Below are positions 44,832-52,147 of a stretch of DNA of 64,000 nt, one piece after another; within the stretch, counting starts at the first letter, position 1; each line of letters starts with the position of its first letter. This DNA comes from Flavobacterium sp. (GTDB lineage Bacteria; Bacteroidota; Bacteroidia; Flavobacteriales; Flavobacteriaceae): NCBI GenBank assembly GCA_025351785.1, contig JANXVF010000139.1:1-64000 (forward strand), in the 5' to 3' direction. The position numbers were made by a program, and so were the translations under genes. Below the pieces are notes generated by a model. That model had not been told where the DNA came from and did not search any database. It was given only the letters and a program-made list of their open reading frames with translations.

Positions 44832-45956
44832 TTAATCTTCCGACTTATTTTTCAATTTCATTAATAAAGTATAAGCACCTTTTGTGACAATTTTGCTTTT
44901 TTCAAAATAAGATTCATTACTTATTTCAATATAACCCTTTTCATGATTTCCAGTTTTTACCTCGCTCATCAAAAAATTATTTTTATCTTTTGCAATAAAT
45001 AAATAACTTTTACCTTCAAAATCTACAACAGATTCCTCTGGCAAGGCATATGAGTTGTTTTTTTCAATTTCAATTTCTGCATTCATATACATTCCGGGCA
45101 ATAAATTTTTATCATATTTTTCAAAATGACAATGTACATTAGCCGTATGATCTTCGGTTAAATCTTTGCTAATCAACAATATTTTACAGTCATATTTTTT
45201 TTTAAAATCATTATTAGTATAAGCTAATAATTTCTGACCTATAAAAAGATTAGTAACATCTTTCTCAAAAATTTTTAAGTTCAAATGGATATCAGACGGG
45301 TTGATTAATTCAAATAAAACATCCGATGGGTTAACATATTTTCCAATATTTACATTTACTCTAGACACAAATCCGTTTATCGGAGCATAAATATTGACAC
45401 TTTTAGATATTGATTTTTCTGTTAATCGATCCGGATTCACATTTATCAACCGAAGTTTTTCTGCAAGCGAAACTAATGTAATTCTCAAAGTTTTATAATC
45501 AGCTTCGGCAAGTTGAAATACTTTATCGCTACTGGCTTGGCTCGAGTTTAATTCTTTTTGACGCACAAATTCTTTTTCAGCAAAATTCAGTTTCGATTTA
45601 GTAATTAAATAATCTTGTTGCAACTGTATGTACTGTTGGTCTTCCATAACAGCAATAATTTCACCCTTAGAAAAATGCAAGCCGGGTAATAATTTTGTTG
45701 ATTTTAAATAGCCACCTAGTGGCATGGAAACAGAAACCATGTTTTGAGGCGGTACATCAATTTTCCCATTTACTTTTAATAGTGATGACATACTTCTTTT
45801 TTCTAAATATCCAATTTTGATTGTGGTATTTTTAAGCTGTTCGTTTGTTAAAACAATTGTATTTTCATTTTTAGAAACAGCTTTTTCAGGTTCATTATTT
45901 TTAGTATTGCATGAAGCAATTACTAGCATCAGCATTAATTTATATATATTTTTCAT
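44832..45956 (-). CDS. Efflux RND periplasmic adaptor (CzcB/CusB-like) lipoprotein
   Basis: Lipobox MLMLVIASC; VNGKIDVPPQNMVSVSMPLGGYLKSTKLLPGLHFSKGEIIAVMEDQQYIQLQQDYL; NIYAPINGFVSRVNVNIGKYV. Confidence 0.9.
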   Translation of the reverse strand: MKNIYKLMLMLVIASCNTKNNEPEKAVSKNENTIVLTNEQLKNTTIKIGYLEKRSMSSLLKVNGKIDVPPQNMVSVSMPLGGYLKSTKLLPGLHFSKGEIIAVMEDQQYIQLQQDYLITKSKLNFAEKEFVRQKELNSSQASSDKVFQLAEADYKTLRITLVSLAEKLRLINVNPDRLTEKSISKSVNIYAPINGFVSRVNVNIGKYVNPSDVLFELINPSDIHLNLKIFEKDVTNLFIGQKLLAYTNNDFKKKYDCKILLISKDLTEDHTANVHCHFEKYDKNLLPGMYMNAEIEIEKNNSYALPEESVVDFEGKSYLFIAKDKNNFLMSEVKTGNHEKGYIEISNESYFEKSKIVTKGAYTLLMKLKNKSED

Positions 45957-48900
45957 TTTGTTTGCAAATAATTTAATTCGATTATTGTTTGATTATATGC
46001 CGTTACAGCTTCAATATAGTTGCTTTTAATAGCAATATTTTGATTGATTAAAAGTGTCCATTCTAAATAGTTAATAGCTCCATTCAAAAATTGTTTGTTT
46101 GCTGTATCTTCAATTATTTTTGAATTTATCAACCCTGTCTTTTCAAAATAATTTACTTTTTCTTTATTTGTCTGATATTGAATTAGCAAAGATTTATAAA
46201 GATTTTTTAGTACTTTTTTTTGATTTTCATAGTCATTATTAGCTATCGATTCTCCTATTTTCGATGCATTAATTTTAGCTTTTTGCGAGCCTCCAAACAA
46301 CGGAATCCCAAGTCCGAGCTGTGCCGAGTGAAACCTATTTGAAGCACCATAAACCTTATTGTCAGCTCCCGTCCCTACAAATGAATTGTTATTATATCCA
46401 ATTGTAATACTGGGCAAAAGTTTTGTCTTTTCAAGTTTTGTATTGGCCTCAGATATCTTTTTATATTGGGCAAATAATTTCACAGTCGGATGTTCATCAA
46501 ACCAGCTTGTGTCTATAGTTTTTGTATATTTTATCTTCAAAGGATTTGAATTTACTTCAACATTTTCATCTTCGTTTAGAAGCAATTTAAACCTACTTTT
46601 AGCAATCTCTAAGTCTTCTTTCAGTTGCAACAGTTGTATTTGAATGTTTCCCTTTTGGGTTTGTGCCGTTGTGTTTTCCAAAATATTACTTTCTCCTTTT
46701 TTATAACGGAGTTCTGATTTATTCAAAAATTCCGTAAAAATCGAGTCGCTTCTTGTCAATAATTTTTGCTTCTCATTCAAATAAACTAATAAATAAAAAT
46801 TTTGTGAAACAGCTTTTTTAAGCTCATTTTCCTTCATCGAAACGTTCAAAACAGCTCCTTTCCAAACCTCTGTAAATAGTTTTTTTTGATTAGAATATAC
46901 CATCGGAAAATTCAATAATTGAGAAACTCCAAGTTTAGAATCGTTATTATAACTATTAATTTGTCCGTAGTCGCCAGAAATTTGAGTAGGCACAATAGTC
47001 AAAGACGACTTTATAAGTTGTTTTTGATAATCAGATTTTAAACGTTCACTTTTCAAATCCACATTGTTTTTAAGTGCTAGTTCTATTGCTTTTTCTACTG
47101 TAATTTTAGATTGCGCACCAGCATTATTAAATACTATGCAAAACAAAATCACAATTGCAGAAATAGGTAGCTTAGGTACTTTTATTTTCAACCCTTTCTC
47201 AAATTGAATATACAAAATGGGCAATACATAAAGCGTCAATAAAGTGGCTATCAATAATCCTCCTATAACAACTGTTGCTAGTGGGCGTTGCACTTCAGCA
47301 CCGGCACCATTGCTCAATGCCATGGGCAAAAATCCTAGCGATGCTACAAAAGCTGTCATCAATACAGGACGTAATCGTAACTTGGTTCCCGTCATAACTA
47401 TTTTTTTTAAATCGGTTAAACCCTCATTTTTCAATCTATTAAATTCCGAAATCAACACAATTCCATTCAAAACAGCAACTCCAAACAAGGCTATAAATCC
47501 TACTCCAGCACTTATGCTAAATGGCATTCCTCTAAGGGCTAAAAAGAAAATCCCTCCAATTGCCGAAAGCGGAATGGCAGTATAAATAAGTAATCCATGT
47601 TTTACCGATTTAAACGCAAAAAATAACAAAACAAATATCAAAAATAAAGAAACTGGAACTGCTATAAACAACCGTTGCTTTGCTTTATTCAAATTTTCAA
47701 AAGCACCGCCATAAGTTGCATAATACCCCGCCGGAAACTTAATTTTTTCAGCTACTTTTTGTTGCAGTTCCGTCACAATGCTTTGTACATCTCTATTTTT
47801 AACGTTAAATCCTACTATAATTCTACGTTTTGCATCTTCTCGTTGTATCTGGTTTGGACCATCTTTAATACTTACTTTTGCCAATTGCGACAGCGGAATT
47901 TGAATTCCTTGAGGCGACGGAATCAATAAATTTTGAACATCTTCTATATCCTTTCGTTGCAAAGTATCTAGTCTAACAACCAAATCAAATCGCTTTTCAC
48001 CTTCAAACACCAATCCTGTACTTTGCCCTGCAAAAGCAGCGTTAATAACCTTGTTTATATCCATAATAGACAAATTATACTGGGCAATAGTAGCTCGGTT
48101 AAATTCTATAATTACCTGTGGCATTCCTGTTACGGGTTCAATAAATAAATTTTGCGATCCTTCGACTTTCGAGATTATTTTCCCCATTTTATTAGCATAC
48201 AAAGCTAATGTATCGAGGTTTTCTCCAAAAATTTTACAGACCACATCTTGCCTTGCACCAGTCATCAATTCGTTAAACCGCATCTGAACAGGATATTGAA
48301 ATCCAGCAGTTATCCCAGGCACATCTTCCAGAGCCACACTCATCTTCTCAGACAATTCGTTAAAAGTCCTTGCCGATGTCCACTCAGATTTGTCTTTCAA
48401 AATCACCATCATATCGCTAGCATCCATAGGCATAGGATCGGTAGGAACCTCGCCACTTCCTATTTTTGTTACAACCATTTTAACTTCAGGAAATTTTGTT
48501 TTCAATATATGCGCTGCTTTTTGTGTACTTTCAATAGTTGTTTTCAAATTGCTCCCGGTCAAAACTCTCGTGTCAACGGCAAAATCGCCTTCTTCAAGCG
48601 CAGGAATAAATTCGCCTCCCAAAAACGAAAGAATCACAACTGCCAATACAAACATCCCGATTACTGCACTTATCACAACTTTAGGAATCGCCAATATTCT
48701 ATTCAAACTCTTTTGATATCGCTCTTCGATTTTCGACATCAATCGGTCAGAAAAATTGGGTTTATGTACCATCTTTTTACTCAAAAACACAGCACTCATC
48801 ATCGGGATATAGGTCAACGACAAGATAAAAGCACCCAGCAAAGCAAAAGCAACTGTCTGAGCCATCGGTCTAAACATTTTTCCTTCAATACCTTGCAAAG

Positions 48901-50338
48901 TAAAAATAGGTAAATAAACAATCAAGATAATTATCTGACCAAAAACGGCACTATTCATCATTTTTGATGCCGATTTTTGCACCTCCTCATCCATTTCTAC
49001 AACTGTCAGTCGTGTCCCGTTCATAGTTGTTGTATCGCCACTAGCTTGTACAGTTTGCAAACTCAATTGCTTACTACGATTCGCCAAACTATGCATCACG
49101 GCTTCCACAATTATCACAGCTCCATCTACAATCAACCCAAAATCCAACGCTCCCAGACTCATCAAGTTGCCGCTTACGCCAAATGTATTCATCAATATAA
49201 TTGCAAACAGCATCGCCAACGGGATTACTGATGCCACAAGCAAACCAGCTCTAAAATTTCCCAAAAACAAAACCAATACAAAAATCACAATCAAAGCACC
49301 TTCCATAAGGTTTTTTTCTACCGTCCCGATAGCGTTATTCACCATTTTCGATCGATCTAAAAACGGTTCTATCACAACCCCTTCGGGCAGTGTTTTCTGA
49401 ATTTGAGCCACTCTATCTTTCACATTTTTTATCACATCGCTACTGTTTGCTCCCTTCAGCATCATCACCACAGCGCCAGAAACTTCCCCTTTATCATTAT
49501 AACACATCGCTCCATACCTCGTCGCATAACCCGTTTTTACCTCGGCTATATCTCTTATAAATAGCGGATTCCCCTTCTCTCGTAACGATATGTTTTCAAT
49601 ATCCGCAACACTTCCTATCAAGCCCTCACTTCTTATAAAAAGCGCGGTTGCTCCCTTTTCAATATATGCCCCACCCGTATTCTGATTATTTTTTTCAACC
49701 GCATTAAAAACATCATTTATAGATATTCCATACGATTGTAGTTTATTCATATTTATCGAAATTTCATATTGCTTCAATTTCCCGCCAAAACTACTCACCT
49801 CAGCAACACCCTTCACTCCCAGCAATTGCCGTCTCACGATCCAATCCTCAATAGTACGCAAATCTGTCTCGTTATATTTTGTTTCATAACCCTCCTTAGC
49901 ACGCACAACATACTGATATATTTCTCCAAGTCCTGTCGATACGGGTCCTAATTCTGGTGTGCCAATGCCTTGCGGAATCTGAGTTTGCACTTTCTGTAAT
50001 CGTTCAGAAACCTGTTGCCTTGCCCAATAAATATCCGTATCATCGTCAAAAACAATCGTCACTAGCGATAAACCAAAACGCGAAAAACTCCTAATTTCCT
50101 TTATCCCAGAGATATTAGTATTCGCCTGCTCAACAGGAAAAGTCACCAATCGCTCAATATCGGTAGCCCCAAACGATGGCGCTATAGTAATTACCTGAAC
50201 CTGATTATTTGTAATATCCGGTACAGCATCAATAGGCAACTGCGTAGTTTCATAAACCCCATAACCTAACAAACCAAAAGTAAACAATGCAATGAGAAGC
50301 TTATTCTGAATAGAAAAAGCTATTATTTTATTTAGCAT
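45953..50338 (-). CDS. CzcA/CusA-type RND heavy-metal pump fused to a TolC/CzcC-like outer-membrane factor
   Basis: N-terminal IIAFSIQNKLLIALFTFGLLGYGVYETTQLPIDAVPDITNNQVQV; CusA-like core; after about residue 1035 a second signal-like stretch VILFCIVFNNAGAQSKITVEKAIELALKNNVDLKSERLK and a TolC-like domain. Confidence 0.93.
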   Translation of the reverse strand: MLNKIIAFSIQNKLLIALFTFGLLGYGVYETTQLPIDAVPDITNNQVQVITIAPSFGATDIERLVTFPVEQANTNISGIKEIRSFSRFGLSLVTIVFDDDTDIYWARQQVSERLQKVQTQIPQGIGTPELGPVSTGLGEIYQYVVRAKEGYETKYNETDLRTIEDWIVRRQLLGVKGVAEVSSFGGKLKQYEISINMNKLQSYGISINDVFNAVEKNNQNTGGAYIEKGATALFIRSEGLIGSVADIENISLREKGNPLFIRDIAEVKTGYATRYGAMCYNDKGEVSGAVVMMLKGANSSDVIKNVKDRVAQIQKTLPEGVVIEPFLDRSKMVNNAIGTVEKNLMEGALIVIFVLVLFLGNFRAGLLVASVIPLAMLFAIILMNTFGVSGNLMSLGALDFGLIVDGAVIIVEAVMHSLANRSKQLSLQTVQASGDTTTMNGTRLTVVEMDEEVQKSASKMMNSAVFGQIIILIVYLPIFTLQGIEGKMFRPMAQTVAFALLGAFILSLTYIPMMSAVFLSKKMVHKPNFSDRLMSKIEERYQKSLNRILAIPKVVISAVIGMFVLAVVILSFLGGEFIPALEEGDFAVDTRVLTGSNLKTTIESTQKAAHILKTKFPEVKMVVTKIGSGEVPTDPMPMDASDMMVILKDKSEWTSARTFNELSEKMSVALEDVPGITAGFQYPVQMRFNELMTGARQDVVCKIFGENLDTLALYANKMGKIISKVEGSQNLFIEPVTGMPQVIIEFNRATIAQYNLSIMDINKVINAAFAGQSTGLVFEGEKRFDLVVRLDTLQRKDIEDVQNLLIPSPQGIQIPLSQLAKVSIKDGPNQIQREDAKRRIIVGFNVKNRDVQSIVTELQQKVAEKIKFPAGYYATYGGAFENLNKAKQRLFIAVPVSLFLIFVLLFFAFKSVKHGLLIYTAIPLSAIGGIFFLALRGMPFSISAGVGFIALFGVAVLNGIVLISEFNRLKNEGLTDLKKIVMTGTKLRLRPVLMTAFVASLGFLPMALSNGAGAEVQRPLATVVIGGLLIATLLTLYVLPILYIQFEKGLKIKVPKLPISAIVILFCIVFNNAGAQSKITVEKAIELALKNNVDLKSERLKSDYQKQLIKSSLTIVPTQISGDYGQINSYNNDSKLGVSQLLNFPMVYSNQKKLFTEVWKGAVLNVSMKENELKKAVSQNFYLLVYLNEKQKLLTRSDSIFTEFLNKSELRYKKGESNILENTTAQTQKGNIQIQLLQLKEDLEIAKSRFKLLLNEDENVEVNSNPLKIKYTKTIDTSWFDEHPTVKLFAQYKKISEANTKLEKTKLLPSITIGYNNNSFVGTGADNKVYGASNRFHSAQLGLGIPLFGGSQKAKINASKIGESIANNDYENQKKVLKNLYKSLLIQYQTNKEKVNYFEKTGLINSKIIEDTANKQFLNGAINYLEWTLLINQNIAIKSNYIEAVTAYNQTIIELNYLQTK

Positions 50339-51102: not shown

Positions 51103-51228
51103 TCAATTTCAAACTACTGCTACCTCTCTATCCCTCAATTTAGAAACCTAAGCAATATAAAACTCAACTAAATGCAATAAAGAAATTTAAACATGCTACC
51201 CAAACATATATCTAACAACTTACTTTGT

Positions 51229-51648
51229 ATTTTTAATATAATTATTTAGATTTATGATTTAATTATTTAGTTTTATAATAGAGCATTTTAGTTTTTTAAT
51301 ATAGTTATTTAGTTTTATGATAAAGTATTTTAGTTTTTAAATATAGTTATTTAGTTTTTAAATATAGTTATTTAGTTTTTAAATATAGTTATTTAGTTTT
51401 ATGATAGAGTATTTTAGTTTTATGATAGAGTATTTTAGTTTTTTAATATAATTATTTAGTTTTTTAACATAATTATTTAGTTTTTTGATATAATATTCTT
51501 GTTTAATAATATAGTATTTTTGTTTAATAATATAGTATTTTAGTTTAATGACAAAACAATTTTGTTTAATAATGCAGTAACTTTGTTTTATTAAATAATA
51601 TTTTAATTTTATTGAATGACAATTTTATTTTATCAAATAATAATTTAA
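51229..51648. repeat. Array of 20 tandem 21-bp AT-rich repeats with no indels
   Basis: Manual segmentation gives 20 consecutive 21-bp units, e.g. TTTTTAAATATAGTTATTTAG at 51334, 51355 and 51376 and TTTTATGATAGAGTATTTTAG at 51397 and 51418. The next 21 bp end with the ATG at 51667-51669. Confidence 0.95.
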
Positions 51649-51666
51649 TTTTTTTAAACCATAACA

Positions 51667-52017
51667 ATGCTAACACTCAATCCAACTCCCATTTTCAATG
51701 CCCGAGGAATCACAAAGCCCTATACATTTTTAGTAAAATCGGGATTCACTCCACATGCCGCAAATATAATTATCAACAGCAACACTCGAGTTTTTAGGCT
51801 AGATCACATCGAGTTATTATGCACAGTCCTAAATTGCGAACCAAATGATCTACTTAGATTCACACCCAACAAAGGTCAAAATTATCCCGAAAATCATCCG
51901 CTAGCAAAGCTAAAACAAGATGATATCAACCACGACTTGCAAGATACTCTAGCAAATATGTCCTACAAACAGTTAAAAGAATTCTCAAACAACTTCATAA
52001 AATCCAAAATCGAGTAG
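51667..52017 (+). CDS. Small Cro/C1-type HTH transcriptional regulator
   Basis: ITKPYTFLVKSGFTPHAANIIINSNTRVFRLDHIELLCTVLNCEPNDLLRFTPN; basic-acidic C-terminal tail. Confidence 0.85.
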   Translation: MLTLNPTPIFNARGITKPYTFLVKSGFTPHAANIIINSNTRVFRLDHIELLCTVLNCEPNDLLRFTPNKGQNYPENHPLAKLKQDDINHDLQDTLANMSYKQLKEFSNNFIKSKIE

Positions 52018-52062
52018 AACAATAATGTATACCTATATATATTAAACAATAAACACCAAAAA

Positions 52063-52099
52063 AAATCGAGAATTATGAAATTTTCATAACTCTCGATTT
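52063..52099. terminator. Bidirectional terminator between the convergent HTH gene and cphA
   Basis: AAATCGAGAATTATGAAA-T-TTTCATAACTCTCGATTT, 18-bp arms with one mismatch. Confidence 0.75.
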
Positions 52100-52147
52100 C
52101 CCATTTTCAGATAAAAGATTTGAAAATACTATTTTAACACATCAATA

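Follow-up and report, generated by a model that had tools for sequence, protein, structure and literature searches.

What is a tandem array of strictly constant period doing directly in front of a small regulator gene? The question is raised by positions 51229-51648 of the window (the whole 64,000-nucleotide stretch of Flavobacterium sp. DNA analyzed here). The original prediction described this segment as 20 consecutive 21-bp units free of indels, and the unit table bears it out: 20 abutting units, 0 indels and an unbroken register, with 18 bp between the end of the array and the ATG of a gene for a Cro/C1-type helix-turn-helix (HTH) protein (Table 1).

The array and its neighbor gene

Self-identity of 51229-51669 is 0.77 at lag 21, 0.73 at lag 42 and 0.74 at lag 63, and lag 21 stands out against shuffled sequence (n=500), in which no lag exceeded 0.51. 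Tandem Repeats Finder (TRF), which had been proposed as a check on the period, recovered period 21 across 51230-51612 (score 304) and a higher-order period of 84 bp (score 366); a single row of the TRF output lists 1% indels, the 21-bp register in the unit table being unbroken nevertheless. In 21-bp steps farther out than the two degenerate ones at the array edges, consensus matches drop to 5-8. The array is AT-rich (12% GC), with T-tracts recurring every 21 bp. Its three gene-proximal units are of an older type, as if a newer unit variant had filled the rest of the array and left the older one at this edge. As predicted, there are no spacers between the units, which abut directly, and the unique spacers of a CRISPR array are thus missing. 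Within the 64-kb window, no other tandem array with a period of 15-30 passed the threshold, and no second copy of this one was found in its own genome.

The open reading frame beside the array is a real gene, because its product scores 30.6 bits against HTH_26 (cut-off 22), the sole Pfam domain above its cut-off, and because dN/dS against the closest orthologue is 0.18. An AlphaFold model, of moderate confidence in its C-terminal third, places the HTH helices at residues 18-24 and 29-36, strands at 2-4 and 63-65, and C-terminal helices at 87-96 and 100-115. Structural neighbors in Foldseek are HTH proteins only (CylR2, SinR, C.AhdI and Stl2), and NCBIfam returned no match for the protein. A role as a defense system was rejected: PADLOC recognized nothing in the window protein and gave the homologue at locus L010 a single weak, unnamed match. 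The gene stands alone, with a divergent 150-aa ORF and a czcA-like gene upstream and a convergent cphA-like gene downstream; to judge from its sequence, the inverted repeat between the two convergent genes is probably a bidirectional terminator. A CzcA-like RND pump ORF in the window (45953-50338, 1461 aa) carries, in a single frame, a C-terminal part that resembles an outer-membrane factor of the CzcC/TolC type.

Table 1. Features of the window and of related loci (entries without a locus prefix are window positions)
Feature	Position	Strand	Details
Degenerate distal unit	51208..51228	+	11/21 consensus matches
Array of 20 tandem 21-bp units	51229..51648	+	Consensus TTTTATAATATAGTAATTTAG; 84-bp higher-order pattern inside; TRF and unit table
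TATTTTTG, TAnnTTTG match inside array	51515..51522	+	Candidate promoter element, from sequence
TAACTTTG, second TAnnTTTG match inside array	51578..51585	+	Candidate, from sequence
Three gene-proximal units of older type	51586..51648	+	Resemble units of orthologous locus L062
Last 21-bp step, degenerate, ending on ATG	51649..51669	+	11/21 consensus matches; register to ATG kept family-wide
116-aa Cro/C1-type HTH protein with C-terminal helices	51667..52017	+	Pfam HTH_26; AlphaFold model
Inverted repeat AATCGAGA...TCTCGATT	52062..52101	.	Between HTH gene and convergent cphA-like gene; by eye
21-bp array without local HTH gene	L111:4422-4649
21-bp array without local HTH gene	L112:4762-4971
21-bp array without local HTH gene	L113:100-290
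21-bp array without local HTH gene	L117:3028-3452
21-bp array without local HTH gene	L118:2951-3297
Array + gene copy	L047:5860-6596
Array + gene copy	L048:4562-5304
Array + gene copy	L049:4803-5546
Member of ~310-aa family	L047:6734-7678
Member of ~310-aa family	L050:5000-5935
Member of ~310-aa family	L060:108-1064
Member of ~310-aa family	L061:2214-3170

A family of gene-array pairs with fixed period and register

Homologues of the HTH protein, separated from generic XRE proteins by a clear score gap, were present in 10 of the 150 genomes from the genus and in 7 of the 398 that sample the phylum (one genome per species). When about 85,000 species genomes were scanned with a narrower group-1 alignment and two peptide patterns, which favors the window's subfamily, 41 loci emerged, every one of them Bacteroidota-named and drawn from the Flavobacteriales, Chitinophagales, Saprospirales, Sphingobacteriales and Bacteroidales. 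The upstream regions of HTH orthologues, to which the original prediction had pointed as a check, nearly all carry a 21-bp array: it is clear, with about 6-22 units, at 55 of 61 distinct loci, weak at five (L058, L059, L089, L092 and the truncated L093), and absent at L022. Of 64 upstream regions, 62 had their strongest autocorrelation at 21, 42 or 63 bp, compared with 6 of about 63 downstream controls, where top lags were otherwise scattered. Moreover, 302,578 bp of flanks held 31 tandem arrays of period 15-30 at threshold, all directly upstream of the HTH gene. The exceptional L022 gene (1501-1848) follows the 3' end of a gene with an S1 domain, has a TAnnTTTG box close upstream, and offers a natural control for protein function without an array. 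The DUF2975-linked XRE genes at L004 and L005 were set aside as a separate family without arrays.

Neither a conserved partner gene nor an operon was found beside the family's HTH genes, synteny being conserved locally only. The family tree mixes bacterial families and the distribution is patchy. An origin in phages or plasmids was rejected, since the HTH protein had no matches in phages, plasmids or viral contigs; the L092 member sits on a complete chromosome record. In the open-access papers searched, no description was found that links 21-bp repeats to Flavobacterium, to Bacteroidetes or to XRE proteins. In combination with the constant unit length and register set out below, the pairing of a lone HTH gene with an array points to a gene switch that reads itself, or to a DNA system resembling satellites, of a kind not described in those papers.

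The period is 21 at every array, and the unit sequences are wholly different between species (for example, TTTTTTAATATAGTTATTTAG in the window, AGTGTCCGTCCATAGGGCAAT at L060, TTTTGGGTTGTCAAATAACAA-like at L010 and TTTGTTTTGATATCTAACGAC at L003). Across 569 units we counted 2,983 mismatches to the local consensus, versus one candidate off-register unit. Copy number does vary, as had been proposed: orthologous L062, with a protein 88% identical to that of the window and alignable flanks, has about 13 units versus 20, and a different consensus. Units also differ among L003 and L055, which have their upstream and downstream neighbors in common, and L019, which shares the downstream one. Units may be amplified and homogenized like satellite DNA, with selection purging every length change. 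Coding heptad repeats were rejected, as the open frame and strand vary by locus, any one frame is open in at most 6 of 49 arrays, and there is no mod-3 signal; the long open frames of some arrays, such as L118, arise because 21 bp is seven codons.

The array of the window was predicted to be in phase with the start codon, and this proves to be general in the family rather than a coincidence. Thirty loci below 62% protein identity, anchored at the ATG only, agree in their 21-bp phase as far back as -231: the period-21 power was 332, with a median of 6 over periods, and random shifts reached at most 153 (0 of 300 as high). The window's group keeps a single phase, which 19 of 30 representatives match exactly, and other subfamilies have phases of their own. 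A neutral leader would not have kept such a register among loci this divergent, and the finding suggests that there is one exact position at which the lattice has to meet promoter or leader. Translation through the array does not account for it, because most arrays contain stops in the ATG frame, nearly every window unit carrying one. The Bacteroidetes -7 promoter consensus is TAnnTTTG. Such a box lies between array and ATG at 11 of 52 loci (3.2 expected; shuffle maximum 9); a box fixed relative to the array was rejected, as its phases are not clustered.

What the array may do

Unit similarity between loci follows the DNA-binding half of the protein. With residues 46-110 controlled for, the partial Mantel correlation with residues 2-45 was 0.368 (0 of 1,000 permutations), and the reverse test gave 0.024 (376 of 1,000), figures for loci related by descent in which kinship is controlled solely through the identity of the protein's other half. 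The covariation with residues 2-45 persists among locus pairs below 55% identity. It peaks at residues 1-10, 14-20 and 33-45, which map to the strand at the N-terminus, to where the first HTH helix (18-24) begins, and to the last part of the recognition helix together with the loop after it. This is indirect evidence, drawn from sequence comparison, that the protein may read its own array.

We consider it reasonably probable that the array is the operator of the adjacent HTH protein, bound cooperatively by one copy per two-turn unit and autoregulatory, with array and DNA-binding domain co-evolving. The phased, multi-copy operator first suggested for this locus gains support from the arrays carried by homologues and from their covariation with the DNA-binding half. 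The lack of comparable arrays elsewhere in the flanks, the near-total retention of the 21-bp step, the shared register to the ATG and the purifying selection on the gene also speak in its favor. Each 21-bp unit would hold one copy of the protein, probably a dimer, and because the unit amounts to two helical turns, all copies would lie on one face of the helix. They would stack into a cooperative nucleoprotein array running into their own promoter and leader; a filament nucleation site, also suggested originally, is compatible with the data. Control would most likely be repression, probably autorepression with a sharp threshold set by unit number, and array and DNA-binding domain would co-evolve as lock and key. 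From the regularities described above we infer that the protein physically binds its array and does so cooperatively, that it regulates its own gene and in which direction, and that it acts in trans on gene-less arrays.

Several observations count against an operator. Ten to 20 operators far exceed the need of simple autorepression. A family gene without an array exists (L022), and the arrays at L058, L059, L089 and L092 are weak. A -7 box is recognizable between array and ATG in just the minority of loci given above. A classical symmetric dimer site is not evident, because the units are no more palindromic than column-shuffled controls, and a palindromic site was rejected on that ground. A regulon elsewhere in the genome was rejected: there is no second array in the window's own genome, and in genome G009, searched with its own unit, the unit occurs only within the array itself, single sites being absent; this confinement of the unit speaks for the operator. 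When genomes were searched with the unit of their own array, a single array came up in that of the window and in two of four others (G009 and G559).

The main reservation about a promoter operator comes from arrays without a local gene. In Flavobacterium aquatile (G013), the L010-type unit is also arrayed at C5:496448 (L111), next to what by eye is a short stump of the HTH gene, and at C6:61777 (L112), without a gene. Flavobacterium terrigena (G558) has one full-length family gene and three arrays, and G289 has one array at a contig start and another on a 238-bp contig. In F. terrigena, the L117 array lies between convergent genes, where a promoter role is unlikely, and that of L118 lies about 80-140 bp upstream of a lipase-like gene. 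tblastn detected no remnants of the HTH protein at the gene-less arrays (L111, L112, G558 and G289). Arrays at unrelated loci had been named as evidence against a link with the gene. Such arrays do exist, but the genomes that hold them encode a family member with the same unit, and the arrays imply either action in trans or persistence without the gene.

Several gene-less arrays lie directly behind a neighbor gene's intrinsic-terminator-like hairpin. In one genome, three copies of array and gene (L047, L048 and L049) have 731-744 bp in common at 92-94% identity. The edges of this segment are sharp and its flanks unrelated, so that it looks moved as one cassette, and no obvious terminal repeats were seen. 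Away from any intact copy, L047:10306-10452 encodes 49 C-terminal residues of an HTH family gene, with 71% identity to L010. At L096:4001-4344 and L045:2067-2372, family genes are apparently broken by a frameshift or stop, with the 21-bp arrays still there. A family of ~310-aa proteins (MNxxQExKLSMY...), the L047 member of which has no NCBIfam match, is encoded divergently beside four arrays, in Flavobacterium and another family of the class. REP-associated (Y1-type) transposase-like genes occur near three loci (L052:4957-5529, L076:1053-1607 and L096:331-885), and F. aquatile contains many GATAGCGCGGATTTGCAATCCG palindromes; these genes and palindromes are possible agents of dispersal.

A wider reading, which we entertain tentatively, is that of a bacterial satellite-DNA system in which solitary HTH proteins across the phylum each coat their own fast-evolving 21-bp satellite in a two-turn lattice. 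They would act at their own promoter and, in trans, at dispersed arrays, to organize or mark the chromosome or to drive their own persistence.

That the arrays are centromere-like or chromosome-organizing, coated by the HTH protein to position, bridge or condense DNA with control of its own gene secondary, seems unlikely to us. A small DNA-binding protein with a long tandem array directly upstream is the architecture of type II/III partition systems (PMC5016525), the gene-less arrays are intergenic (one between convergent genes), and F. terrigena has one HTH gene for three arrays. Yet no motor NTPase or conserved partner adjoins the gene, three of the genomes searched hold a single array, and occurrence in so few genomes of the genus is too patchy for a core chromosome function.

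Quite improbable, in our estimate, is a selfish satellite pair, in which the protein protects the array or helps to copy it (for example, through replication pausing or recombination) at small benefit to the host. The solitary gene in changing contexts, the three copies with a shared segment and unrelated flanks, the homogenization of units and change in copy number, the arrays without genes, and the patchy distribution with a tree that mixes families would all suit such a pair. However, the protein is under strong purifying selection (dN/dS 0.02-0.21 in the family), the exact register between array and ATG is of no obvious use to a parasite, no conserved mobility gene lies alongside, and no phage or plasmid copy was found.

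Curved or nucleosome-like DNA, in which 21-bp-phased A/T tracts bend the promoter and the HTH protein is incidental, is very unlikely because of the GC-richer arrays. Many arrays, that of the window included, are AT-rich with a T-tract once per 21 bp, but at 18 of 52 arrays A/T4 tracts occur in fewer than half of the units, several (L060, L044, L085 and L090) have almost none, and array GC reaches 0.47. The curved-DNA element of the original prediction therefore fails as a family-wide principle, phased tracts in each unit being wanting, and it leaves the covariation with the DNA-binding domain unexplained. An ordinary slippage repeat retained as harmless, to which we give next to no credence, would explain only the multiplication of units (the 42-, 63- and 84-bp higher-order periods and the degenerate units at the edges are traces of amplification) and is refuted as a full explanation by the phylum-wide tie to one gene family, the fixed period and near-absence of indels despite total sequence turnover, and the ATG register and covariation with the protein.

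Comparison with known systems

More than 50 natural protein-array pairs are now at hand in which unit sequence has turned over and unit length and gene register have not. With them one can test directly how the specificity of a DNA-binding protein and that of its multi-site array shift together, and why 10-20 sites persist when two or three suffice for most regulators. The gene-less arrays raise the possibility of bacterial satellite-like DNA with its own binding protein, and the pairs are a ready source of orthogonal phased operator arrays.

Among Cro/C1-type HTH regulators, to which the protein belongs by its HTH_26 score, the best PDB match is the SaPI2 master repressor Stl2, in the HTH part only (E 0.006; Foldseek E 0.01). 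Stl2, at about 230 aa, is a protein of a phage satellite and has other partners, and the resemblance ends with the HTH. Xre/Cro-C1 autoregulators of phages, restriction-modification controllers and antitoxins have few operators, usually palindromic. The family described here has the HTH fold in common with SinR, CylR2 and C-proteins (HTH_26; Foldseek CylR2, SinR and C.AhdI), but it has 6-22 direct units and no toxin, restriction enzyme or phage partner.

In function, iterons and the partition systems built on ParR or TubR would come closest to these pairs. Iteron plasmid origins carry tandem repeats of about two helical turns before the gene of their binding protein, a layout shared by the pairs described here, in which binding is putative. 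Iteron replicons encode a Rep domain, whereas here only HTH_26 exceeds its cut-off in Pfam and NCBIfam gives no match; there is no plasmid or origin evidence, and the unit sequence is not conserved even among orthologues.

In the parC/ParR and tubC/TubR partition systems, tandem repeats in front of the gene of a small protein are coated by that protein, which represses its own promoter, ParR binding as one dimer per iteron (PMC5016525). Here, too, tandem direct repeats lie directly upstream of the gene of a DNA-binding protein. Type II/III systems have a motor NTPase (ParM or TubZ) in the operon and are borne by plasmids or phages, whereas the present gene stands alone, has no plasmid or phage match, and in one member sits on a chromosome record. 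ParR is an RHH protein and TubR a winged helix, in contrast to the Cro/C1-type HTH here, and their units are about 10-12 bp rather than 21 bp of rapidly changing sequence. By analogy, the family may work like ParR/parC, TubR/tubC or iteron arrays, yet it falls outside each of these classes.
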